From: Flavobacteriales bacterium
GTDB lineage: Bacteria > Bacteroidota > Bacteroidia > NS11-12g > UBA955
Length of the DNA: 37,337 nucleotides
NCBI GenBank assembly: GCA_947496375.1
Contig: CANMCY010000022.1
Span: 1-37,337, forward strand
Direction: 5' to 3'
Shown here in pieces: positions 15,312 to 28,829 of this stretch. The notes under the pieces are model-generated. The model was not told the origin of the DNA. It worked only from the letters and a program-made list of their open reading frames with translations, and did not search any database. The position numbers and the translations under genes are program-made. Position 1 is the first letter of the stretch. Every line of letters begins with the position of its first letter.

Positions 15312-16109
15312 TTATCGCGAAAGTTTCAGGATTTTTATGGCTCCTTTACCCACAATCACAAATACGATACTTCCAATGAGTATGTCAGGGTAGGGAGATT
15401 GCGAAATAAATACCAGTAAGGCAGCCACCATCACCCCTAAATTGACAAAGACATCGCTAGAGGTAAAAATCATGCTTGCCTGAATGTGTACCTCTTTGCT
15501 TTTGCTCTTTTGTAGAAGATATAGGCATAGGGCATTTGCCAATAAAGCAAATACGGATACAACCACCATGATTAGGTAATCGGGAGTTGCCTCAAGGCCC
15601 ACAAAACGGCGGATAACTTCTATAAAACCCAGCATGGCAAGGACTAGCTGAAAATATCCGGCAAACAGGGCTATTGTCTTTTTGCGCACTACACTGCCAC
15701 CCGCTGCCCATAGTGCCATGCCATACACAATGCTGTCGGCAAGCATATCTAAACTGTCGGCCATGAGTCCCATTGAGTTGGAAATAAAGCCCGTAATAAG
15801 CTCTAAGGCAAAGAAAAAAGCATTAATGGCCAGCACCTGCCACAATAGCTTTCTTTCTTGGTGTACATTTTCTGTAGAAACGGAGGCTTTATTTACATCA
15901 ATACTCTCAGATAAGCATGTATCAAGCTTCAGGTCATTGAGTTGGTGATGAATATTTTCGTGGGTTCCAGTGTGATAAACGGTAAGTTTGCGCTGAGGGA
16001 TATCAAAATTCAGAGTCTGAATTTCAGGTAAATCTGTCAACTTCATCCGGATTAGCTGCTCTTCAGAAGGGCAGTCCATTTTGGAAATGATGAAGATGGT
16101 TTTTTTCAA
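15312..16109 (-). CDS. CDF-type cation transporter with N-terminal HMA-like domain
   Basis: 265-aa inner-membrane protein. Residues 1-70 form a ferredoxin-like HMA-type domain with MDCPSEE (11-17) where metal chaperones have MxCxxC, so only one Cys is kept. About six transmembrane segments follow (90-265), with the CDF signature GLMADSLDMLADS in TM2, giving the DxxxD metal site D121/D125. In TM5 the canonical HxxxD reads FTSSD, so D219 is kept but the His is replaced by Phe215. No long C-terminal cytoplasmic domain is present. It probably exports a divalent metal in exchange for protons; the metal is unclear. The start is TTG at 16109: beginning at M11 would remove the first beta strand of the HMA domain. 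It lies 33 bp downstream of the T9SS protein gene, on the same strand. Confidence 0.85.
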   Translation of the reverse strand: MKKTIFIISKMDCPSEEQLIRMKLTDLPEIQTLNFDIPQRKLTVYHTGTHENIHHQLNDLKLDTCLSESIDVNKASVSTENVHQERKLLWQVLAINAFFFALELITGFISNSMGLMADSLDMLADSIVYGMALWAAGGSVVRKKTIALFAGYFQLVLAMLGFIEVIRRFVGLEATPDYLIMVVVSVFALLANALCLYLLQKSKSKEVHIQASMIFTSSDVFVNLGVMVAALLVFISQSPYPDILIGSIVFVIVGKGAIKILKLSR

Positions 16110-16142: not shown

Positions 16143-19100
16143 TTAGTTCTTTGGCCTCAATAGCAATATGCTGCCTTTATCTTGCCGGTTCGGAGTTTTT
16201 CTGCCCTTAAATTTAATGCGGTAAGCATAAACGCCTTCCGGACAATGGGTTCCCCTGTAAGTTCCATCCCAGAATTGAGATGCATTGTCACTCTTGAAAA
16301 CAATCTGTCCCCAGCGGTTATAAATGAGCATTTCAAATTCGGTTGCACCAATCACCACCGATTCAAGCTTATCATTAAAGCCATCATTGTTGGGCGTGAA
16401 TGCATTGGGTATATAATAGACCACCGTATCGCGGTAGCAATAATCTGCCTCTGCGCTGTCAGTGCATCCTCCTGCATTTTGCACCACAAGTTTCACACGG
16501 TATCGGTTCTTTTCGCCGTTGTAGAAATGCTTAGGGCTCATTCCCGGGTCGAAGGGTTCACTGCTGCCGTCTCCCCAGAACCAGGTGCCGGTTTCTGCGC
16601 CTACGCAATTATTGAAAATTCTTAGGTTGGGATAAATGGGACTCAGGCAGGCAGCACCATTGGGTATGCTGCCAATAAATGCTGCAGTGATGGCTTTGTA
16701 GCCGGGGATTTCAATGGTGGTATCCACAATACAGCCGGTTTTAAGGTTTACGGCAGTTACCCTATATTGATTGCCACTCAAGGCATTCAATGAATCACCG
16801 ATGTAAGCCGGACTTACATCCCAGGTAAAACGATAAGGCCCGGCGTCTTTCATACGGAGCTTAACCCACCCTTTTTGACCGAAGCAAACCGGAGGGGATG
16901 TGGTAGCCATAAAATAGGGCTTAGAATGCCTATAAATAGGCACAGCTGCTGTTGCCGGCTCACTGCACCCATCGGTAACTACTACATTGTAAACGGTGGT
17001 TGTAAGGGGGCTTACAAACGTTCCGTTGCCTGTTTGTCCGTTGCTCCAAGCAAATGAATAAGAAAACTTATCACCACCGGTGGCTGATGCGCGCAACCAT
17101 ACAATTTCACCCGGACAAATGGTATCGATTGGAGGATTCACCCTGACCTTCAGGGTGTCAATCACCGAAACGTTTACGGTAGTGGCAGCCGTGCAGGCGC
17201 CTGACACCAAGGTGTAGGTTAGCGTATGGGAGCCGCTGCCGGCCAAATAGGGGTTGAATTGATTGCCGGAGACACCATTCCCGGAAAAAACTCCTCCCGG
17301 TATATTGGCGATGAGGAGATAGGGGGTGTTTTTGAAACAAAAATCGGTTACCGGATTCACAAACCACAGGGAAGGAGCTGCATCAACCCGTATAAAGAAG
17401 TTAACGGTACAACCCCACTTGTTTCGGAATGTGACAACATGGTTGCCAGCGCCGGCTACTGCAGGGTTAAATGTGCCGAGAATGACATTGGTAATGCCTT
17501 TTCCACTAAAACTTCCTCCCGTTTCTCCAGCGCGGCAATTGAAAGCCGCTGTGTTAATACAAACAGCAGTATCGGTCTGGGCTGTAGGCCGCGGTCTTAC
17601 GAAGGCATTCAGGGTATCATTACATCCATTTTTATGATATACCAGCTTATGATGACCAAAACCGGCCAGGGCTGCAGTAAAGCCATTTACACCTGTAATG
17701 CCCGGTCCTGTCCAATATCCACCGTCAGGGCTTAAACCCAGCAAGGCATTGTTTAGTATGCGTACAGGGTTTTCTATGCAGAAAAACTGGGTGTCTTTTT
17801 TATTGATTTTGGTAGGAATCAAATGTACAAATTTCCGATCTGTACAAACCCCGTTGCGAAGCGTGAGCGTATCGATATAGGTGGCTTTACCCAGGGTAAA
17901 AAAGAAGGAAGGGTCGTAGTTGGGCGAACCGGGAGATACAATTCCTTTGCCTGTCCATGTGTAGTTGGCAGAAGGCCTGAAATTAGCCAGTACTTTCATA
18001 CCATTAGCCGGACAGAAAGTATCATTAGTGCCGGCTTCACTGGGTAGCACGGTCAAACGGGTGGTGTCTTTGCATCCGCCGCCATTCCATATAATTAATT
18101 TTGTTCCGGCACCGCCGGTCTGACTTGGATTGTACCATCCCCAGTAGGAATTGGTTAAACCCACAAACCAGTTAGGATAGATACCTTTGGGTGAAAATGT
18201 AAGAGTATCAGATGTTCTCGACTCGCAGGTGGTATCAAACTTAGGAACCACCATGTTTTCTACACGGATGGTTTTGACACTTTTACATCCTTTCCAGGTA
18301 TAAGTATCCTGATAGATTCCGGGAACATCCGGATTGAAAATTCCGGCAGACGTAATTTTAGGACCACTCCAGGTGCCTCCTAATGGACCATACCACCATA
18401 CGGCCTGAGGTGGTTTTCCCGGGCAGAAGACGTTTTCCAGGTTCCATGGCCCCACGCTGTTTACCATCACGGTATCTGCACAGCTACCTATCTTATACCA
18501 TACTTTGTTTTGACCCCACAATGTTGACGGTTTAAACTCACCGGAAAGTGAATTGACAATGCCGGAACCGTACCAACGTCCACCGGCCGGGGAAGCCCTC
18601 AGGAAAATGTTGGGACCGTAATAACATATTTCCGTATCGCCCATGGCAGCGGGTGGGTCCAAAACCACAATGTTGACGGTATCTGACGAAGGAATAGACG
18701 ATCCATCGGTAACCCTGAGTATGTACTGGGTATTCACGGTAGGACATATTCGATGTGGTCCTGCCCCTGAGAGCACAGGAGTCCATGTATAAACATATTT
18801 GGCGGGGTTTCCACCACTCACAGTAGACCTTAGAAAGGTGCAGCTACCCTTACAAATGGTGTCCGAATCAGCTTTAAGTAATACTTTAAGTGGGCAGTCT
18901 GAAACACTGAAAATTAATTTACTTTGTGTTAAATATACACTATCGCAGAAATCTTTCCAGTATACATTTAATTGAAAGGTGTAGTTGCCGTTCAAAAATA
19001 ATGCCCCCCCTGTATTTACGGTAAAGATTGTGGCCTTGCCTCCCGAGCAGTTATCCGGGGTGACGGATGTTATTCCAACGGCACCAAATGGCCCTGTCAG

Positions 19101-19637
19101 TGAACCCAGTATGGCTTTAATGCTGTCACAGGGAATGCTGCGGTTGCTATTTACCTTAAAAGAAGTAGCGTTACATTTTACGGTTCCATTAAGCGTAAAG
19201 ACCGGGGTAGGCGGCGGGATGATGGTAGTAATAATATCGGCTTCCCAGCCATAGCAGGCAACGCTTTTGTCCGATTTAAAATGAATGGTAATAAAGCTGT
19301 CCTTACTGATAATGGTACCCGGTCCCTTGCTTCCGGTCCATCTGCCTATTAACGGTGCAAATGTGTCTTTACCATCGAAAATACTAAGTACATCATTGTC
19401 TTTTTCTATACAGAACGATTTGAATTTAAGGGTGATGCTCTTAGCTCCCGGGACACTTAATGTGAGTGTGTAATTTTCATTGTGATCATAATCCCCTTTG
19501 GTTTTCCCTTTTTCACTATCCTTAAAAACGCCTTTGCAAACCCTAACCCGCCCGTTTTGCATGAAAACTTCGGTCTGCGCTGCCGAAAATTGCAACGAGC
19601 AAAGCAAAAGCACTATAAAGGTTAGCTTTTTCAGCAT
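16143..19637 (-). CDS. Giant secreted CUB/repeat/PKD protein with T9SS type B sorting domain
   Basis: 1164-aa secreted protein. Signal peptide 1-20 (FIVLLLCSLQFSAA). Residues of about 30-137 form a CUB-like domain (LTLSVPGAKSITLKFKSF, DVLSIFDGKD, FKSDKSVACYGWEA). Six degenerate copies of a ~32-residue unit, consensus GGxWSGxGI...FxPxxAGxGxHxLxY, start near residues 352, 420, 560, 639, 707 and 781. Ig-like and PKD-like regions follow, including FWGDGSSEPFDPG near 1020. The last ~90 residues (from YYIPNAFTPNNDGFND) are the gliding-motility-associated type B sorting domain, with EMLIYNRWGQIVF and GVYAYRIKF. It is exported by T9SS and probably attached to the surface. Its ATG overlaps the stop of the preceding lipoprotein gene (TGATG), so it is the last gene of the DUF1501-like operon. 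Confidence 0.93.
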   Translation of the reverse strand: MLKKLTFIVLLLCSLQFSAAQTEVFMQNGRVRVCKGVFKDSEKGKTKGDYDHNENYTLTLSVPGAKSITLKFKSFCIEKDNDVLSIFDGKDTFAPLIGRWTGSKGPGTIISKDSFITIHFKSDKSVACYGWEADIITTIIPPPTPVFTLNGTVKCNATSFKVNSNRSIPCDSIKAILGSLTGPFGAVGITSVTPDNCSGGKATIFTVNTGGALFLNGNYTFQLNVYWKDFCDSVYLTQSKLIFSVSDCPLKVLLKADSDTICKGSCTFLRSTVSGGNPAKYVYTWTPVLSGAGPHRICPTVNTQYILRVTDGSSIPSSDTVNIVVLDPPAAMGDTEICYYGPNIFLRASPAGGRWYGSGIVNSLSGEFKPSTLWGQNKVWYKIGSCADTVMVNSVGPWNLENVFCPGKPPQAVWWYGPLGGTWSGPKITSAGIFNPDVPGIYQDTYTWKGCKSVKTIRVENMVVPKFDTTCESRTSDTLTFSPKGIYPNWFVGLTNSYWGWYNPSQTGGAGTKLIIWNGGGCKDTTRLTVLPSEAGTNDTFCPANGMKVLANFRPSANYTWTGKGIVSPGSPNYDPSFFFTLGKATYIDTLTLRNGVCTDRKFVHLIPTKINKKDTQFFCIENPVRILNNALLGLSPDGGYWTGPGITGVNGFTAALAGFGHHKLVYHKNGCNDTLNAFVRPRPTAQTDTAVCINTAAFNCRAGETGGSFSGKGITNVILGTFNPAVAGAGNHVVTFRNKWGCTVNFFIRVDAAPSLWFVNPVTDFCFKNTPYLLIANIPGGVFSGNGVSGNQFNPYLAGSGSHTLTYTLVSGACTAATTVNVSVIDTLKVRVNPPIDTICPGEIVWLRASATGGDKFSYSFAWSNGQTGNGTFVSPLTTTVYNVVVTDGCSEPATAAVPIYRHSKPYFMATTSPPVCFGQKGWVKLRMKDAGPYRFTWDVSPAYIGDSLNALSGNQYRVTAVNLKTGCIVDTTIEIPGYKAITAAFIGSIPNGAACLSPIYPNLRIFNNCVGAETGTWFWGDGSSEPFDPGMSPKHFYNGEKNRYRVKLVVQNAGGCTDSAEADYCYRDTVVYYIPNAFTPNNDGFNDKLESVVIGATEFEMLIYNRWGQIVFKSDNASQFWDGTYRGTHCPEGVYAYRIKFKGRKTPNRQDKGSILLLRPKN
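17211..18584 (-). repeat. Six-copy internal protein repeat region
   Basis: Residues 352-809 of the T9SS type B protein carry six spaced copies of a ~32-residue unit. Examples of its opening: GGRWYGSGI, GGTWSGPKI, YTWTGKGI, GGYWTGPGI, GGSFSGKGI and GGVFSGNGV. Each continues with F-x-P and, in most copies, AGxGxH near its end. The copies are divergent at DNA level and separated by Cys-containing linkers, so this is an old protein repeat array and not a recent tandem duplication. Confidence 0.75.
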
Positions 19638-20083
19638 CAGCGTGTTATGATAACTTCCGGTGTTTTGATGGGATTACTCCAGTTGCCCGCCCTGTCCTGA
19701 ATCCGAACAGTGAAAGACGTGGTTTCTATATTGCCTGTGCCTAAAAGAAACACGTTTCTAAGGTTCATCGTCATTTGACCTTTAATGCGAATCTTCTCGC
19801 CTACAGGTGCCATAGGAGGTACGTAGTAATAATCCGGCTTGGCAAGTCGTTCGTCCTGAACTTCCAGACTGTTGATATCGGCATTGTCATTTCCCAGATC
19901 TCCGTCTCCATCCTCATAGGTAAAGGTAATCTTCAATGAATCTACAAACTGTTTAACTTGTGTGGGGGCTATTTTGACCAATGCAATACGCGGAACGGGG
20001 TTTCCGGTAGTGTTAAGTATTTCCTTGCAGCTATTTAACAGAGGAAACAACAACAATGATATACCTGTAATTACAATCCTCAT
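19637..20083 (-). CDS. Small lipoprotein of unknown function
   Basis: 148-aa predicted lipoprotein. The signal peptide ends in lipobox LNSC with Cys19. The mature part is beta-rich: TFTYEDGDGDLGND (about 53-66), a form often seen in Bacteroidota lipoproteins, then a hydrophobic-polar alternating C-terminus including TSFTVRIQDRAGNWSNP, an Ig/fibronectin-like strand pattern. No catalytic motif is visible. Its ATG overlaps the stop of the upstream cytochrome-like gene by 4 bp, and its stop overlaps the start of the T9SS protein. It is therefore translated in fixed order with both, and a structural or docking role next to the giant CUB protein is inferred. I do not recognise a named family. Confidence 0.85.
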   Translation of the reverse strand: MRIVITGISLLLFPLLNSCKEILNTTGNPVPRIALVKIAPTQVKQFVDSLKITFTYEDGDGDLGNDNADINSLEVQDERLAKPDYYYVPPMAPVGEKIRIKGQMTMNLRNVFLLGTGNIETTSFTVRIQDRAGNWSNPIKTPEVIITR

Positions 20084-21033
20084 GGTATTCTCAGGGCAAA
20101 GTATTTTTTCAGAAAGAACATGCTGTTTGTGTTTGGCAACTGATAATCGTTATTGATATTGTCACTGCAGGTAATCCTGAACCAAAGCACATCATAGGAT
20201 TGCATGCCTGCGGTGGAGAAGAGGAAATACCAGGCATAGGGGGTATTGGCAGCATATAATCCGGGTAGATTTTTAACGGCTCCCTTGATTAAGGGTTTTT
20301 CGTTGGATGGATCAAATTTCTCAGGATCTGTAGACCAATTGATGCTCATACCGGTAAGATTCTCCTGATTAAGGGCATCATCTGCCAGTGAAAACCAAAG
20401 TTCCAGATTTTGACCAGGTTGGGCAACCATGGGTTCATATTTACCGCCTCTTCCAATGGGAGTGCCATTTAACAAGGCCTGAACCCCCATAACCTGGGGT
20501 GGAAAATTGACCGGCCCGGGTTTATTGCCTTTGGAATCGGGAGCTCCTTTGTTAATCCACTGTTTCAGGTTATCGAGCAATTTGTCTTTTACAGCCGGAT
20601 AATTACTGCCCGGTTCCAGCGCCAACGGCATAATGCCGGAGTTTCCACCCAAATCCACTGTCATTCGGTAAATCAATATGCTTGCATCTGCATTGCCCGG
20701 CAAAACCCTGGCATTGAAGGTGCCCGCCTGATCATTTTTGATGGGCTTTACATTGACCAGAGAGGCAAACGAACTTTCCACTGTTCTGAAATCGGGCTCA
20801 AACGTTCCATCGTGGCAGCCACTGTTGGCGCAGGTAGGAGCAAAGAGATCTCTATGCAATCCCTGAATGCTGGTGGCATCGGCAGCCGAATCGCGGGATG
20901 TGGTGGTATCGCGGTTTATTTTAATGGGCTTACCAAAGGGATTGCCAATAGATGAACCCTCTTTTTTACATGCGATTCCAAACACGAGCAGGATTGCAAA
21001 TAATGCCGGTATCAATCGGGACTTATTCATCAC
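20080..21033 (-). CDS. Cytochrome-c-like lipoprotein (PSCyt1-like, CX4CH)
   Basis: 317-aa lipoprotein with lipobox GIAC (Cys22). Residues 60-165 resemble planctomycete-type cytochrome c domains: LFAPTCANSGCHDG (C68, C73, H74), then LPGNADASILIYRM, IMPLALEPG (Met135, possible axial ligand) and LKQWINKGAP. The heme-binding site has four residues between the cysteines (CX4CH) instead of the canonical two, so heme attachment is not assured. The C-terminal half (170-317) contains a beta domain, GVQALLNGTPIGRGGKYEP and LELWFSLADD, with no motif I can name. It overlaps both neighbours by 4 bp (ATGA). Likely role: redox or substrate-binding lipoprotein working with the Tat-exported DUF1501-like protein. 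Confidence 0.87.
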   Translation of the reverse strand: MMNKSRLIPALFAILLVFGIACKKEGSSIGNPFGKPIKINRDTTTSRDSAADATSIQGLHRDLFAPTCANSGCHDGTFEPDFRTVESSFASLVNVKPIKNDQAGTFNARVLPGNADASILIYRMTVDLGGNSGIMPLALEPGSNYPAVKDKLLDNLKQWINKGAPDSKGNKPGPVNFPPQVMGVQALLNGTPIGRGGKYEPMVAQPGQNLELWFSLADDALNQENLTGMSINWSTDPEKFDPSNEKPLIKGAVKNLPGLYAANTPYAWYFLFSTAGMQSYDVLWFRITCSDNINNDYQLPNTNSMFFLKKYFALRIP

Positions 21034-22382
21034 ATTCTCAGAAATAAGCTTTTAGACTGTGGATCGAGATATGGACTCGCCTTTACTTCATCGTATACAC
21101 CAAATATATCGGCAATGGTTGGCACAATATCAGTGAGTTTACCCACTTTATTGCCTTCGGAGCCCACCGATATTTTGGGAACATTCTTACCTACCATCAC
21201 CGACCATACCCGCATGGCATTGGCGTCGCTGTGGTCATAGGCATACCAGTCATTTTCATCCAAAATGGGATTGGGATTTAGATTTCTACCGCATTCCGGT
21301 GCAATTATCATGATGGTCTTGCCTGACATTTCAGGGATATTGTTCTGGATGTAATTCCAAAGCCATCCCACGGAGTGATCGGCGCGATGCAAACTGCGTA
21401 AATATCCTGTAAAGTTGCTGTGGCAACCGTCTACCGCACTCATGTTGAGGGTAAGGAACTTGGGCTTGAAATGGCGTAATACCTCGGCGGCATAGCTAAT
21501 CGTGACTGCATCACCATTGTCAGAAACCGGAGGACGGGGGATGAGACCCTGGTCCTGACGCTGAAATACAGCACGGATAAACTCCTTGATTTTGGTCTTT
21601 TCTTCGTCTGTGTTTTTTATGGTCTCCAATTGATTGGGATTCAGGCCAAAACTCTGATCCAAAAAATTCTTCATGAAGTACATGGGGTCCAGGTCCGCAC
21701 GGGAATAAGGTTTACCATTTCCCAGAATTTCTCTGCCCACGCCACCAAAGGTATACGGCGCTGCAAACATATTGCCCCCATACTGCAAGCCGTAATCTTC
21801 ATTTTTACTGCTATTTAGTAAAGGTGTACTGTTGCCAAGGCCGTTGGCTATGAACCAGGTATCCAATGCTGCAAATCCTGCATGTTTTCTCAGGTATTCA
21901 AAAATGGTTGGGTATTTGGGGCGTGTTTTCAAACCCTGTGCAGTTCCGAGACTGCCGGTAATCAGGGTGTTAAGTCCCACATAGTGCCCTGCACTTATTG
22001 CCGACATTTCTTTGAACACCGCTCCGGTATCTTCCATGCTCTGACTAAGTATACGGGGAATGGGCTCGCTCCCTCGGGTTGCTCCGCCACCGGGGTCCGT
22101 ACCATACACAATCTTGCGATCCGGCGCGATGCCTGTAAACAGGTTGGGCATAATATTGCCAGCAGCTCCGGTCACCTCCTGACTGTCATCCAGATATCGT
22201 TGCAACACGCTTTCCTGTTGCCTAACACCACCGGCAAACATAACCATGACCACATATTCCGCCTTGGGTGCGTTGGTGCGCGCAAACATTCTACCCGTGG
22301 GGAGTATATAGGGAGCAGCCACCGTGCCGGCTGTTACCATTCCTGTTTTTTTGAAAAAATCTCTTCTGTTCATGGGTTTCAA
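21030..22382 (-). CDS. Tat-exported DUF1501-like protein (alkaline phosphatase-like fold)
   Basis: 450-aa protein. The N-terminus MKPMNRRDFFKKTG is a twin-arginine signal (R6-R7), followed by a hydrophobic MVTAGTVAAPYILP. The body fits DUF1501-type proteins, which belong to the alkaline phosphatase/sulfatase-like fold: YVVMVMFAGGVRQQ as first strand, FLTLNMSAVDGCHSN in the middle, TIMIIAPECGRNLNPNP, then AYDHSDANAMRVW and VGKLTDIVPTIADIFGV near the C-terminus. No sulfatase-type formylglycine motif CxPxR is visible. In planctomycetes, DUF1501 genes sit beside PSCyt1/DUF1549/DUF1553 genes; here the neighbours are a PSCyt1-like and two DUF1549-like lipoproteins. The periplasmic substrate is unknown. 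It abuts the upstream gene without a gap and overlaps the downstream one by 4 bp. Confidence 0.87.
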   Translation of the reverse strand: MKPMNRRDFFKKTGMVTAGTVAAPYILPTGRMFARTNAPKAEYVVMVMFAGGVRQQESVLQRYLDDSQEVTGAAGNIMPNLFTGIAPDRKIVYGTDPGGGATRGSEPIPRILSQSMEDTGAVFKEMSAISAGHYVGLNTLITGSLGTAQGLKTRPKYPTIFEYLRKHAGFAALDTWFIANGLGNSTPLLNSSKNEDYGLQYGGNMFAAPYTFGGVGREILGNGKPYSRADLDPMYFMKNFLDQSFGLNPNQLETIKNTDEEKTKIKEFIRAVFQRQDQGLIPRPPVSDNGDAVTISYAAEVLRHFKPKFLTLNMSAVDGCHSNFTGYLRSLHRADHSVGWLWNYIQNNIPEMSGKTIMIIAPECGRNLNPNPILDENDWYAYDHSDANAMRVWSVMVGKNVPKISVGSEGNKVGKLTDIVPTIADIFGVYDEVKASPYLDPQSKSLFLRM

Positions 22383-22880
22383 TTAATAGTATTGGTATTC
22401 ATCGCTTACCGAAAAAGCGGTGTAAACCATTTCTACCGATACGTTGGGATTGCTGTTGATGTAGTTGATAAAGAAGGTCTTTTCCCCTTCAGACGGGTAT
22501 CTTAGAAAAAATCGCTTGTAGCACTTTTCGACAAAAGCAGCCACATCAGCCCGCATTTCACTGTCTTTGGGAATCTTTAATGTTGAAGTGTTGAAGTAAT
22601 TACTCAATACCATTTCATTGGCTACATTTCTGTCGCCAATGCTGTAAATCACATTTTGCGTTTTATACAGCTGGTTGGGAGAGATGGGCACCTGATACAG
22701 ATTGGTGTATAGAATAGAGATATACTCCGCATCCGATTTGCGCTTGGTTTTTAAGCTCTTATCTTCATATACAACCTTGTCATTGACACCAAAGGTTACA
22801 TTCTTCTCTTTGGTACAACCCGCTATCAGCAGCATTGTCATAACAAAGGCGGCGGTTATGTTTTTACCTGAATTGTGCAT
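22383..22880 (-). CDS. Lipoprotein with DUF1549/DUF4214-like unit
   Basis: 165-aa lipoprotein: lipobox IAGC with Cys22. An N-terminal unit around 52-70 (YISILYTNLYQVPISPNQ) and a better one at 116-133 (FVEKCYKRFFLRYPSEGE) match the pattern Y-x-x-LL-x-R-x-P-x-x-x-E. The second is followed by a final SVSDEYQYY. This is the same arrangement as in the next gene upstream, so the two are probably paralogues. The pattern is shared with DUF1549 and DUF4214, and I cannot decide between them. It overlaps the upstream gene by 17 bp and its stop abuts the next start. Periplasmic or surface-anchored; function unknown. Confidence 0.83.
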   Translation of the reverse strand: MHNSGKNITAAFVMTMLLIAGCTKEKNVTFGVNDKVVYEDKSLKTKRKSDAEYISILYTNLYQVPISPNQLYKTQNVIYSIGDRNVANEMVLSNYFNTSTLKIPKDSEMRADVAAFVEKCYKRFFLRYPSEGEKTFFINYINSNPNVSVEMVYTAFSVSDEYQYY

Positions 22881-23808
22881 ATTCGTCGGTTTTAATTACG
22901 GCTTTTTGAACTTCCTGTAAGTTATTGCTGCGCATATAGTTTCCCAGCAGGTTGATAACTTCCTGAGTATTGGCGTCTCTCTGGAGAAGGAGGTAATAAA
23001 CCCAGCGTATTTGTGCTTCATAGAACTCGGGTGTATGCGTTAAGACATCGCAGTATTCATTTTTGTTGGCTGCCCATCTTCCAAAAATTTGCCGGGGTAT
23101 GTTTTTGTCTATAATGTCATAGGCAGCCGTAAACTCGTTTTTCAGCGGCTGCCGTTGAAACAAATCATCAAAACTGGCGTTCACATAGTTAAAACTGTTC
23201 ATGTTGATTTGATCGTAAATAGAATTATTGAGCATAGCAGCGCACATATCGCTGTAGGTGGCCGTATTTTTTAATAATTTGTAGCGGCTGTTCAGCACAT
23301 CTCTGTATTGTTTTTGGGCTGCCTTTGCCGAATAGACACCAACAGAGTCGCCATTTAACCTTGATATTGTGATGCTAAACTCTAGAATTCCGATATTCTG
23401 AGCAATATCATCATCGCTGGCCCCTTCAAGAAATCTAGCCTTACTTAAGTCATAAATGCGCTGAATGGCTGCATGCCGGTAGCTGGAATCGCCGGGATGA
23501 TAAACAGTGTCATACAACAACTGATTGATAAGGGTGTCCCTTGAATGTATGCTCAGTTTGTTTCTTTTTAAGAATTCAGTGTGGTAAACCCGCTCTGTGT
23601 CAGTAGGTTCCCGTCCAAGCAAATCGATAAAATATCGATTTACATAGTTTTCTACCTTGATGGTAGGCACAGAACGATAGTCAGGCGGCTGGTTGCCCGT
23701 TATGAGAATGTCTTCTGTCTTCGTACACGAGGATATCAGCAGAAAAACAAAGCTGAAGGGGAGGGTAAACTTCAACACTATCACAATTTTAACCAAAAAA
23801 AATGACAT
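22864..23808 (-). CDS. Lipoprotein with three DUF1549/DUF4214-like units, first gene of the operon
   Basis: 314-aa lipoprotein; lipobox ISSC with Cys28, followed by TKTED. Residues 55-105 (NRYFIDLLGREPTDTE, then a helix ending INQLLYDTVY) resemble the start of DUF1549 from planctomycetes. Two weaker copies occur at 208-225 (YVNASFDDLFQRQPLKNE, later HTPEFYE) and 268-283 (RWVYYLLLQRDANTQE, later KTDEYAQF). The body is helical and charged. The ATG at 23808 gives an unusually long n-region; the in-frame TTG at 23775 (LKFTLPFSFVFLLISSC) would give a more typical lipoprotein signal. This is the promoter-proximal gene of the DUF1501-like operon, divergent from hmgA. Role unknown; inferred scaffold or binding component. 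Confidence 0.84.
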   Translation of the reverse strand: MSFFLVKIVIVLKFTLPFSFVFLLISSCTKTEDILITGNQPPDYRSVPTIKVENYVNRYFIDLLGREPTDTERVYHTEFLKRNKLSIHSRDTLINQLLYDTVYHPGDSSYRHAAIQRIYDLSKARFLEGASDDDIAQNIGILEFSITISRLNGDSVGVYSAKAAQKQYRDVLNSRYKLLKNTATYSDMCAAMLNNSIYDQINMNSFNYVNASFDDLFQRQPLKNEFTAAYDIIDKNIPRQIFGRWAANKNEYCDVLTHTPEFYEAQIRWVYYLLLQRDANTQEVINLLGNYMRSNNLQEVQKAVIKTDEYAQFR

Positions 23809-23981: not shown

Positions 23982-25139
23982 ATGGCTTTCTATCATAAAT
24001 CCGGCACCATACCAGACAAAAGACACACACAGTTTCGCAAGCCCAACGGAGACCTGTATTCAGAAGAATTGTTCAGCACTGAGGGTTTCAACAGTATTTA
24101 TTCCCTGATATACCATTGCCACCCCCCTACATTAGTATCCCAAATAGGGGAGCCCTATAGCGTAGAGCCCAAGATTGCGATGGCCAAAAACATGCAACAC
24201 CGCAGCTACCTCACCTGGAAAGTGCCGGCAGAATCAGATTACATCAAAAGTCGTAAAGTGTTGCTTATGAATCATGATATACAAATAGGAGTTGCTGCAC
24301 CATCGCAAAGTATGCACGATTACTTTTTCAAAAACGCCGATGGTGATGAGGTCCTCTTTATTCATGAAGGTGAGGGATACCTGGAAACCATCTACGGACG
24401 CATAGATTTTGAATACGGTGATTACCTGGTGATACCCAGAGGCACCATTTATAAATTGCATTTTAACAGTTCAAACAATCGGGTCTTTTTTGTAGAATCA
24501 CCCAATCCTGTGTATCCTCCCAAGCGCTACCAGAATAGCATGGGACAGTTGCTTGAGCATTCCCCTTACTGCGAACGCGACATTAAATTGCCCCATGGGC
24601 TGCAAACCCATGATGAAAAAGGGGAGTTTAAGGTAATGATAAAAAAACAGGGAAATATTTGGCCATATACCTACGCTACGCATCCATTTGACGCGATTGG
24701 ATGGGATGGCTTTTTGTATCCCTTTGGTTTCAGTATTCACAATTATGAGCCCATAACAGGCAGACTGCACATGCCACCGCCCATCCACCAGACTTTTGAA
24801 GGCAAGGGATACGTTATTTGTAGTTTTGTTCCGCGCCTATATGATTATCATCCCTTGAGCGTTCCTGCACCCTACAATCACAGCAATGTGGACAGTGATG
24901 AAATTCTATATTACGTGGATGGCGACTTTATGAGCCGCAAACATGTGGAGCGTGGTATGATTACCCTTCACCCTAAAGGAATCCCTCATGGCCCGCACCC
25001 CGGAACGGTGGAAAAGAGTCTGGGACAGAAAGAAACCCGTGAACTGGCGGTGATGATAGATCCGTTTTCCCCTTTAATGATCACCGAAGAAGCCCTAAAT
25101 CTGGAAGATCCAACCTACTGGAAAAGCTGGGTTGAATAA
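23982..25139 (+). CDS. hmgA: Homogentisate 1,2-dioxygenase
   Basis: 385-aa cytoplasmic non-heme Fe(II) ring-cleaving dioxygenase of tyrosine/phenylalanine degradation (homogentisate to maleylacetoacetate). Cupin-type sequence with DEVLFIHEGEGYLET (122-136) and GDYLVIPRGTIYKL (146-159). The C-terminal active-site region contains PPIHQTFEGKGYVICSFVPR (266-285), PAPYNHSNVDSDEILYYVDG (295-314, likely ligands H300 and E307 or D306) and PKGIPHGPHPG (331-341, third ligand H336). It is shorter than the human enzyme (445 aa) and resembles the compact bacterial form. The ATG start follows a TAnnTTTG box. The Asp-box protein gene follows 18 bp later, but a functional link with it is not apparent. No other tyrosine-catabolism gene is adjacent. 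Confidence 0.93.
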   Translation: MAFYHKSGTIPDKRHTQFRKPNGDLYSEELFSTEGFNSIYSLIYHCHPPTLVSQIGEPYSVEPKIAMAKNMQHRSYLTWKVPAESDYIKSRKVLLMNHDIQIGVAAPSQSMHDYFFKNADGDEVLFIHEGEGYLETIYGRIDFEYGDYLVIPRGTIYKLHFNSSNNRVFFVESPNPVYPPKRYQNSMGQLLEHSPYCERDIKLPHGLQTHDEKGEFKVMIKKQGNIWPYTYATHPFDAIGWDGFLYPFGFSIHNYEPITGRLHMPPPIHQTFEGKGYVICSFVPRLYDYHPLSVPAPYNHSNVDSDEILYYVDGDFMSRKHVERGMITLHPKGIPHGPHPGTVEKSLGQKETRELAVMIDPFSPLMITEEALNLEDPTYWKSWVE

Positions 25140-25157: not shown

Positions 25158-28100
25158 ATGAAATCTTTAAAAATCTTTTCTTGCTTTATTTTAGGGTGTT
25201 TTAGCACCCTAAATTATGCCCAGGTTAACCCTAAAAATTACAGCAAAAAGGTTAATAAAACCTACAAAAAGCTGACAAAAAAAGCTTCGGCAAACACAGA
25301 TAGTCGCGATGAAAAGAAAACGGCTACCCCAAATCTTTTCTGGGCGCAGGAATACATTGCCACCATGGACCCAATAACGGGCAAACCTGCACCTAAAAAT
25401 GTGATGACTGCCATACAGCAAAGCATGGCTAAAAAAGACCTGGGTCGAAGGGCCATGCCGGGTATGGCTGTTACGCCCTGGGTAGAACGTGGCCCCAACA
25501 ATGTTGGCGGCAGAACCCGTGCGCTGTCCTGGGATCCCACAAGTTCCACCGGGAAAAAAGTGTGGTCGGGTGCTGTCACAGGTGGATTGTGGTATAACAA
25601 TGATATAACAAGCGCCAGCAGCAAATGGACACAGGTGAGCGGTTTGTGGAGCAACCTCACCGTAAGTTGTATGGCCTGGGATCCTGTCAACCCGGGAACC
25701 GGCTATGCAGGCACAGGAGAGGGCTATGGTACTACTAGCAGCACTTCCAGGGGGTTCGGCATCTGGAAAACCACCGATTCAGGTAAAACCTGGAATCAGT
25801 TATCTTCCACCACCGGTTACTTCTACGTGCTTGATATTGAAGTCCGAAATGAAAATGGCACCGGCGTAGTTTATGCCGCAGTGGATGCCGGGACCTACCA
25901 GGGTACTACTTTTAATTTAAATACCTATGGATTGTATCGCAGTGTTAATGGCGGTAGTTCATGGACCAACGTAATCTCAAATGCGCCCAATAGCCAGAAA
26001 TTTGCCGTTGCAGACATAGAAATTGCCGCAGATAATCGCATCTGGATTGGAACCCGCAACAATCCGTATGCAGGAACAGACAGGGGAGCTGGCCGTGTTA
26101 TGTATAGTGATAATGGCACCACGTGGAATACCAGCTATACACACACCAACAAAACGGGCAGGGTGGAAGTGGCCATAGCACCTGGCAAACCCAGAACCGT
26201 GTATGCCATGATTGAACACAATCAGACAGTCGATGCTATTGTTGCTACCTATGACAAGGGAGCCAACTGGACATCGAGAACAGAGCCGGACGACGCTGAC
26301 AATGGAATACCTAACACGGATTTTTCAAGAGGACAGGGCTGGTATGACTTAATACTGGCGGTTGATCCTAATGATTCTATGGTGGTTTATGCCGGAGCCA
26401 TTAATCTGTTTCGCAGCGCAAACGGCGGTGCAAACTGGACCCAGATCAGCAAATGGTCAAATAATGCCAGTATGAACAATCTGAATTGTCCTTATGTACA
26501 TGCAGATCAACACGCATTCGTATTTAAGCCCGGCAGCAGTTCTACCTGTGTTATTGGAAATGACGGTGGTGTTTTTTACAGCAGCAATATTGCATCTGCC
26601 GCAAGCAGCTCTACGGCTATTGCAGAACGCACGCTTGACTACAGCACGGTGCAATACTATTGGGGCGATATGGCACAAACCTCTGGCTCTAATCTAATGA
26701 TTGCCGGAGCCCAGGACAACGGTAGTCACCGATTCACCACCGCCGGCAAAAATGCAGTAGGTGGTCTCACCGGTGGGGATGGAGCGTATTGTTTTATTTC
26801 CCAATCCAACAGCAATAAACAAATAACAAGCTACGTATACAATCAGTATTATTATACCCTTGACAACTGGACTACGCCCTCTGCATTTCAGCTAATATCG
26901 GATGGTACCACAGGCAGGTTTATCAACCCCGCCGAATGGGATGATAACGGAAGTGGTCTGTTTTCGGCCAAAGGAAATGGTACTTTATACAGAAGAACTC
27001 TAACCACGAGTCCGGGAACACTGCAAACCATCACGTTTGGGGGTAGTAATTACGCCAGCGCTATCAAAGCATACAAACTGGGAACAGGGAAAACCAGACT
27101 TTGGGTTGGTAATGAGGCCGGAAAAATCTTTGTGACGGATGATGCATGGGCTACAACGCCCGTGTTTACGGATAAATCAACGGGTATAAATGCAGGTTAT
27201 ATTTCAGACATCAATGCGTTGAGGGGAGGGGATACGTTGGCGATAACCCTTACTAATTATGGCTTGCGAAACATCTATATTTCCCTTGATGGTGGAACTA
27301 CATGGACCCAAAAAGAAGGCAACCTGCCCGATATCCCAGTCTGGAGTATTCTTTTAAACCCCAATAAAACCGGTGAGGCCATTGTAGGAACAGAGGCCGG
27401 TATCTATGGTACTGACAATATTTACGCCACCAGTCCGGTATGGACCGCCTATACTGCGGGTATTGGTTTTGTAAAAATGAGAAATCTCAGGTATCGCGCT
27501 GCAGACAAAATGTTAATGGCAGTTACACATGGCAGGGGAGTCTTTACCAGCGATGCCTGGGCCAAAAACTTACCCTTACCTGCTTTTGGCACCAGTAAGC
27601 GGGATGTATGTACCAACCAATCTGTAACATTTACCGACAGTACCATCAACGATCCCACGGCATGGAGCTGGGCTATCACTCCTTCAAATGCTGTGTACAT
27701 ATCAGGCACAGACAGTACCAAAAAGAATCCTGTGGTTCGGTTTACCAAAGGTGGTGTTTATCAGATTAAATTGACCGCCACAAACGCTATTGGCAGCAAT
27801 TTTATTGTGAAATCAAACTGGGTAACCGTTACAGATACTGTGCCTTTTAGCGCCACTGTAAATATGAGCCGCAACGGATTTTGTAATGGTGATACATTTA
27901 CTTTGTCAGTAAACGTTCCCACTGCCTTACAGGGAACGATTACATCTTATTTATGGACAAGAAACACCACAAATACTGTCACGTCATCGACTTATAAGCT
28001 GGCCCCTAACAAAAACGACAGCTTTAGTGTGTTGCTAAGCAGCAATAAAAAATGCGTTTCGCCAACTTCCATCCGCACAAATGTGGTAAGACCCGTGATT

Positions 28101-28829
28101 TACGATATTGTCAACGCATCGGCTAAAATTTCAGCGGGAATTGGTTGTACAGGAAGGCCTTTGACACTTACGGTGACGGGCACAAACACTGGCAGTAATC
28201 CAAGTTGGAGCTGGTTTAAAAACGGAAGTCCCGAAACAGGTAATATGTCTACCTTGAACATACCAGCGCCTGTGAACGGTGACAAATACTGGGCGACTAT
28301 TAATGTGGCGGGACCTTGTGTGCGGCCGGCCAATGAAATCAAATCAGATACTGCCATTCTTGCACTCAACAACACACCAGCCACACCGCAGGTAAGCCGA
28401 AATTTTGATACCTTATTTGCACAAAATTTGGGCAATGGTACCTATCAGTGGTTCAGGGCAGGTGTTTTAGCCGGTAATGGCATGGTTTTCAGGGCGATGT
28501 CAAATGGCGATTATCGCTGTGTATATACGGAAAACGGATGTGCGAGTGACAGTAGCCAAACATTGGTTTTCAACAGTCTTAGGTTGCAAGATTTTAACAG
28601 TCTACAGGTATTGTTCCCAAATCCTGCGGCTTCTTTTGTTATGTTGCCCGCTGAATCCTCTGTAAGTAGGAGTGCGGCTATTTATGACAGTAAAGGAAGG
28701 CTGGTGAAGATTATAACCCTGACAAATGCTGTCAATTATGCTTTCAGAATAGAAATAAAGGACTTAAAAACTGGCGGTTATTTTATTCAAACACAAAGTG
28801 GTAAGGCATACAGGTTTATTAAAGAATAA
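25158..28829 (+). CDS. Secreted Asp-box (VPS10/sortilin-like) protein with PKD/Ig domains and T9SS type A sorting domain
   Basis: 1223-aa secreted protein. Signal peptide: FSCFILGCFSTLNYA, cleaved near AQV. A lysine-rich stretch follows (about 25-55). Residues of about 105-800 form a beta-propeller-like region with repeated Asp-box motifs: TTDSGKTWNQ, SVNGGSSWTN, SDNGTTWNT, YDKGANWTS, SANGGANWTQ and SLDGGTTWTQ, the pattern of VPS10/sortilin and sialidase-type propellers. Then come a PKD-like domain (VTFTDSTINDPTAWSWAI, later FTKGGVYQIKLTATNAIG) and Ig-like modules. The last ~75 residues (LQVLFPNPAASFVML, later AIYDSKGRLVK) are a T9SS type A sorting domain. No catalytic residues can be assigned, so it may be a binding or adhesive surface protein. 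The next gene starts 3 bp after its stop. Confidence 0.92.
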   Translation: MKSLKIFSCFILGCFSTLNYAQVNPKNYSKKVNKTYKKLTKKASANTDSRDEKKTATPNLFWAQEYIATMDPITGKPAPKNVMTAIQQSMAKKDLGRRAMPGMAVTPWVERGPNNVGGRTRALSWDPTSSTGKKVWSGAVTGGLWYNNDITSASSKWTQVSGLWSNLTVSCMAWDPVNPGTGYAGTGEGYGTTSSTSRGFGIWKTTDSGKTWNQLSSTTGYFYVLDIEVRNENGTGVVYAAVDAGTYQGTTFNLNTYGLYRSVNGGSSWTNVISNAPNSQKFAVADIEIAADNRIWIGTRNNPYAGTDRGAGRVMYSDNGTTWNTSYTHTNKTGRVEVAIAPGKPRTVYAMIEHNQTVDAIVATYDKGANWTSRTEPDDADNGIPNTDFSRGQGWYDLILAVDPNDSMVVYAGAINLFRSANGGANWTQISKWSNNASMNNLNCPYVHADQHAFVFKPGSSSTCVIGNDGGVFYSSNIASAASSSTAIAERTLDYSTVQYYWGDMAQTSGSNLMIAGAQDNGSHRFTTAGKNAVGGLTGGDGAYCFISQSNSNKQITSYVYNQYYYTLDNWTTPSAFQLISDGTTGRFINPAEWDDNGSGLFSAKGNGTLYRRTLTTSPGTLQTITFGGSNYASAIKAYKLGTGKTRLWVGNEAGKIFVTDDAWATTPVFTDKSTGINAGYISDINALRGGDTLAITLTNYGLRNIYISLDGGTTWTQKEGNLPDIPVWSILLNPNKTGEAIVGTEAGIYGTDNIYATSPVWTAYTAGIGFVKMRNLRYRAADKMLMAVTHGRGVFTSDAWAKNLPLPAFGTSKRDVCTNQSVTFTDSTINDPTAWSWAITPSNAVYISGTDSTKKNPVVRFTKGGVYQIKLTATNAIGSNFIVKSNWVTVTDTVPFSATVNMSRNGFCNGDTFTLSVNVPTALQGTITSYLWTRNTTNTVTSSTYKLAPNKNDSFSVLLSSNKKCVSPTSIRTNVVRPVIYDIVNASAKISAGIGCTGRPLTLTVTGTNTGSNPSWSWFKNGSPETGNMSTLNIPAPVNGDKYWATINVAGPCVRPANEIKSDTAILALNNTPATPQVSRNFDTLFAQNLGNGTYQWFRAGVLAGNGMVFRAMSNGDYRCVYTENGCASDSSQTLVFNSLRLQDFNSLQVLFPNPAASFVMLPAESSVSRSAAIYDSKGRLVKIITLTNAVNYAFRIEIKDLKTGGYFIQTQSGKAYRFIKE
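25190..25213 (+). other. Stable hairpin near the 5' end of the Asp-box gene
   Basis: TTTAGGGTG, loop TTTTAG, CACCCTAAA: a perfect 9-bp stem about 32 bp inside the coding region, within the signal-peptide codons. No T-run follows, so it is not a classical terminator. It may affect mRNA stability or translation, or may be chance. Confidence 0.4.

Follow-up and report, generated by a model that had tools for sequence, protein, structure and literature searches.

What is a set of genes best known from planctomycetes doing in the envelope of a Flavobacteriales bacterium, packed against the gene for a giant secreted protein? The PSCyt and DUF1501 genes come in dozens of copies in planctomycetes and are without known function. 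In R. baltica, the PSD1 and PSC2 domains each occur 41 times (PMC2754498), relatives of PSCyt1 and DUF1501 occur in planctomycetes and Verrucomicrobia (PMC5615132), and the published roles of the canonical set are limited to suggestions of redox or carbohydrate chemistry (PMC5615132, PMC2754498). In the open-licence literature on DUF1501, DUF4214 and PSCyt we found no function, nor did we find in open-licence work a published description of the operon considered here. That operon is a well-conserved variant of the known, uncharacterised PSCyt/DUF1501 set. Which of its parts have been kept, which have been altered, and what might they do together?

The window (by which we mean the whole stretch of DNA analysed, 37,337 nucleotides) contains six minus-strand open reading frames whose adjoining ends overlap by 17, 0, 4, 4 and 1 bp, and their positions bear out the genes, coordinates and overlaps claimed in a preliminary description of this DNA. 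In order of transcription we call them D15, D4, TAT, CYT, SL and T9. Four of the products—D15, D4, CYT and SL—are lipoproteins, and in each of these four families the lipobox cysteine is invariant. The operon is single-copy in this small genome, and the Bacteroidota promoter TAnnTTTG does not occur in the 182 bases upstream of D15. As to the neighbors, 33 bp behind T9 on the same strand (15312-16109) is a gene for a cation efflux (CDF) protein that begins with an HMA-like domain; this gene may be cotranscribed with the operon, and it was not seen at that place in the relatives inspected. Upstream lies a divergent homogentisate 1,2-dioxygenase-like gene (23982-25139), at whose position four loci (L031, L034, L036 and L037) have a gene similar in size and orientation, and beyond it a gene (25158-28829) whose 1223-aa product combines sortilin/BNR repeats and PKD with a T9SS sorting domain of type A.

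Is the order of these genes an accident of one genome? Of 295 class genomes searched for TAT, 109 gave a match, about 40 of them close (52-67% identity) and about 50 at 32-45%. From the fetched neighborhoods together with 80 named loci, all 80 from metagenome-assembled genomes, 108 distinct loci remained once duplicates were removed, and in 82 of these all six genes are present in the order D15–D4–TAT–CYT–SL–T9. Across the loci, most adjoining genes overlap or are no more than 30 bp apart, and an order that recurs so often at such spacing is not chance. The neighborhood survey that the preliminary description had proposed, by which its claim was to stand or fall, thus finds the genes together in other genomes. 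Contig ends interrupt another 14 loci; nine have the first five genes without T9, with several kilobases of sequence on both sides; and three are exceptions (L044 lacks D15 and T9, L050 lacks D15 and D4 upstream, and L074 has no SL call). Where the six-gene locus is intact T9 comes last, L044 being the one clear exception. In a tree of TAT, the five-gene loci other than L044 group in a single clade, separate from the six-gene loci and with an SH-aLRT support of 100%, and several genomes (e.g., G001 and G086) carry both forms. The full order is found in at least twelve family codes, mostly of uncultured water bacteria. Pairwise divergences of the six proteins are correlated (rho 0.53-0.79), which speaks for joint inheritance rather than for contact. 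A phylum-wide sample of 395 genomes, in which the TAT profile was matched in only three at E 1e-20, was drawn differently from the class sample and is only a hint that the operon is not universal.

The link to planctomycete-type proteins is clearest in CYT (20080..21033, minus strand), a 317-aa lipoprotein with a GTG start in which a PSCyt1-like domain is followed by an Ig-like beta-sandwich (residues about 175-317). Aligned by hhalign with the PSCyt1 region of the canonical proteins of Bacteroidia, the CYT profile reaches a probability of 96% and an E of 1.9e-9 over 128 columns, against a best of 0.19 among ten shuffles, and the match runs on through an MP motif and the helix after it. The heme-type motif is another matter: canonical Bacteroidia PSCyt proteins carry CXXCH, which appears in none of 106 CYT sequences, whereas CX4CH appears in all 106, followed in 104 by the MP (in the window, C68-x4-C73-H74 and M135-P136). 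Heme sites of the CX4CH type are known in cytochrome c3, and cytochrome c assembly genes are found in the window's genome. At E<=1, none of 29 CYT members matched a Pfam cytochrome family, the curated PSCyt1 model (PF07635) included; in the fold searches the Ig-like domain took up the matches, and the cytochrome half was hardly probed. The profile match and the universal CX4CH together point to a PSCyt1-like protein with an altered heme site, so that the PSCyt1-like cytochrome of the preliminary description stands, but with a different heme motif from the one it implied. One CYT member matched NCBIfam BamJ, and a link to the BAM machinery was rejected, for the re-scanned match (L062) covers the signal-peptide region only.

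TAT (21030..22382, minus strand) is a 450-aa exported protein with an RRxF signal; its ORF has a TTG start, and most orthologues begin at the position of its Met4. Its AF2 model (pLDDT 81.7) has the alkaline-phosphatase/sulfatase fold, with 456 Foldseek matches at E<=0.001 and, against PafA (5tj3), a Z of 25.8 with an rmsd of 3.4 over 294 residues. DUF1501 is itself a member of the alkaline phosphatase superfamily. The DUF1501 relation proposed earlier is upheld by profile comparison (hhalign probability 75%, E 2.4e-5, shuffled controls no better than 0.015), although it is remote: the gathering score of DUF1501 (PF07394) was not reached, two of 29 TAT members matching at E<=1 (best 0.0032) and the window's protein not at all. 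Invariant in TAT are D318, H321, E363-x-G-R and D383-H384, and identical in the TAT and DUF1501 sets are E363, G365, R366, D383, H384, D418, T422 and G428, the RRxF being common to both as well. What TAT does not have is an Asp where its first strand ends (FAGGVR), a site of metal binding in the superfamily, and for this reason it may be noncatalytic. By hand, we can set its G-H133-Y-x-G...T/Q-G and the N-H-D-P...T-G of DUF1501 against the C-x-P-S-R...T-G of sulfatases, which places a His (H133 in TAT) at the nucleophile position, that of the sulfatase FGly Cys/Ser, in both TAT and DUF1501; automatic alignment did not align these residues. The export route is plausibly Tat for the family: the signal motif is RRDFFKK, the Tat model scores 14.1 against a cut-off of 22.7 bits, and the second Arg is Lys in some members. 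TatC is present in 57 of 59 family genomes searched, including all six of the same genus, but it was not found in the window's own 99.99%-complete MAG, which may come from a gap in the assembly or from recent loss.

The two genes that begin the operon were described earlier as DUF1549/DUF4214-like lipoproteins, and here the two halves of that label fare differently. D15 (22864..23808, minus strand) is a 314-aa helical lipoprotein with its invariant lipobox Cys at position 28, and its members match DUF4214 (21 of 29 at E<=1, best 4e-7) and PBS_linker, the phycobilisome linker (11 of 29, 1e-8), more strongly than they match PSD1 (five of 29, 0.003) or PSCyt2 (five of 29, 0.017). Its similarity to PSCyt2/DUF1549 (PF07583) is weak—probability 40% and E 3.1e-4 over 46 columns, with shuffles no better than 0.26—and located at the N-terminal LGREP motif (LLGREPTDTE); one relative matches at E 4e-4, below cut-off. 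D4 (22383..22880, minus strand; 165 aa, invariant Cys22) is DUF4214-like only: DUF4214 (PF13946) is matched at E 1.2e-4 with 22.5 bits, under the cut-off of 23.2, and at E<=1 in 21 of 28 members. The two are homologues, with a profile E of 4.2e-7 in which the signal peptide is part of the aligned stretch. (A PDB match of D15 to BamM was set aside, being confined to the signal-peptide region.) SL (19637..20083, minus strand), a lipoprotein of 148 aa, matched no family, Pfam included, and is marked by an invariant D58/G61/G64 (GDGDLG) and a DRAGNWSN motif. Sequence searches gave no PDB relatives for TAT, D4 or SL.

T9 (16143..19637, minus strand; 1164 aa), whose start overlaps the SL stop, is a genuine T9SS cargo of type B. 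Its C-terminus (residues 1076-1158) matches CHU_C (E 2.4e-19, 69.7 against 27 bits) and, above the curated cut-off, TIGR04131 (E 1.7e-14, 53.7 against 35 bits), and we recognized its signal peptide by eye. A CUB domain at 49-133 (E 3.1e-11) and a PKD-like one at 1018-1064, both as first described, flank Cys-bounded Ig-like repeats at about 338-820 with a regular pattern of some 30 near-invariant Cys. The genome encodes SprA (SprA_N E 1.5e-165) and four PorP/SprF proteins elsewhere; none of the latter adjoins T9 in the window, and in five relatives (L035, L041, L051, L053 and L062) one lies directly behind T9. Such adjacency is common, not obligatory, for type-B cargo. PorP-like barrels anchor cargo of this type (PMC9143113). 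For the lipoproteins, the surface-export signal C-x-K-(D/E)2 (PMC5080379) shows weak enrichment relative to a background of 73 lipoproteins, and none of the window's four carries it, so the lipoproteins may lie on the other side of the membrane from T9.

Set beside the planctomycete-type PSCyt1-PSCyt2-PSD1 protein and its DUF1501 partner, as carried by Rhodopirellula, Verrucomicrobia and some Bacteroidia (e.g., L161-L173), the operon has the same components in adjoining genes: a PSCyt1-like domain, a helical part (in the operon only weakly like PSCyt2/PSD1) and an RRxF partner of the alkaline-phosphatase fold. It differs in several ways: its components are distinct lipoproteins, CX4CH takes the place of the canonical heme motif, the cytochrome is followed by an Ig-like domain, most of PSCyt2/PSD1 has given way to two proteins of DUF4214 type, and there are two additions, a small lipoprotein and a T9SS cargo. 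Of 291 genomes of the class, 15 were found to have canonical PSCyt2, and the window's was not among them, which makes the operon independent of its canonical relative's presence. (In four canonical Bacteroidia loci, L161-L163 and L170, there are also other proteins with an RRxF signal, as well as membrane proteins that contain CXXCH.) With the SprB-SprF and PG1035-PorP systems, the operon has in common the type-B C-terminal domain and, in some relatives, the PorP/SprF gene that follows; in the window T9 is without that neighbor, is coupled to a cytochrome/DUF1501-like core, and has a CUB. PafA and choline sulfatase have the fold of TAT, which departs from that superfamily in its first strand and, by the hand alignment, in H133. 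The conserved order first described is sound, the family relations are largely right, the heme motif was imprecise, and the coupling to T9, which holds in the six-gene clade, was too general, since in a sister clade the five-gene core does without T9.

What, then, might six such proteins make? Our tentative proposal, to which we give somewhat less than even confidence, is that this vertically kept operon encodes an outer-membrane-associated complex that binds and processes an extracellular ligand. The four lipoproteins would anchor it at the outer membrane, D15 and D4 as helical linker or scaffold subunits, SL as a small adaptor, and CYT, which has an Ig-like arm, as the carrier of a single covalently attached heme (CX4CH plus Met); TAT, with its unusual active-site residues, would be the putative catalytic or metal-binding subunit. 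T9, once exported by the T9SS, would be tethered on the cell surface through its type-B domain and a PorP/SprF barrel, and there its CUB and Ig-like domains would bind the ligand, which the complex would process while CYT passes electrons. The proposal draws on the tight, conserved order, broken mostly by contig ends, and the correlated divergence; on the PSCyt1 relation with its conserved CX4CH and MP, in a genome with cytochrome c assembly genes, SprA and PorP/SprF; on the fold and invariant Asp, His and Glu of TAT and the likeness of D15 to phycobilisome linkers; and on the PorP/SprF genes behind T9 in relatives, which match the published mode of anchoring (PMC9143113). The analysis itself shows the families, the folds, the lipobox, the conserved gene order and the cargo signal of T9; we infer the assembly into one complex, the heme loading, the electron transfer and the ligand, just as the trans-envelope complex and substrate oxidation of the preliminary description had been inferred. 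Against the proposal stand the five-gene clade, the missing first-strand Asp, the weak surface signals and the lack of an accompanying gene for a dehydrogenase or glycoside hydrolase.

Those same observations can be read otherwise. The five-gene core fits a reading in which the genes are coregulated but separate in function, with a periplasmic redox-type PSCyt/DUF1501 lipoprotein module acting on small sugars and T9 as a surface adhesin; the lack of strict surface signals in the window fits as well, as does the intracellular action on mono- or oligomers that has been proposed for PSCyt genes of Verrucomicrobia (PMC5615132). The SL/T9 overlap and the near-universal retention of T9 in the six-gene clade favor a physical link instead, and we consider such a division of labor fairly unlikely. 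A touch less probable still, to our minds, is that the other five are a dedicated maturation or anchoring set that helps to fold, modify or hold T9, as SprC, SprD and SprF do for SprB, with TAT modifying the cargo or a surface lipid. The terminal position of T9 would suit this, as would the PorP/SprF genes behind it in several relatives and its many cysteines, which would need disulfide or other maturation; yet a well-supported clade has the five genes and no T9, and in only one of its inspected loci (L064) is a type-B cargo gene next door. The T9SS is also not known from planctomycetes or Verrucomicrobia. Relatives of PSCyt1 and DUF1501 are present in both (PMC5615132), which tells against a role tied to T9.

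One might even dispense with the heme. If CX4CH were a disulfide with a structural or metal-binding His, the module would be a nonredox scaffold or binding complex, in keeping with a motif that never reverts to CXXCH, with the silence of the Pfam cytochrome models and with a TAT apparently without the usual catalytic ligands. We find this improbable, given that the PSCyt1 match continues through the MP and the next helix, that cytochrome c3 offers a precedent, and that the genome has the genes for cytochrome c assembly.

Returning to the outer-membrane complex, its boldest form—a redox complex spanning the outer membrane of Bacteroidota, in which a T9SS receptor captures an extracellular polymer that the CX4CH-heme lipoprotein and a His-type sulfatase-fold partner oxidize—is one we regard as unlikely, and if true, it would be a separate-subunit model of PSCyt/DUF1501 chemistry. 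The five-gene clade shows a core independent of T9, and the six-gene operon ties a PSCyt/DUF1501-like set to a T9SS cargo, which gives that set a testable location. As a single-copy, separate-subunit relative of genes that planctomycetes keep by the dozen, the operon allows its parts to be deleted, tagged or purified one at a time.
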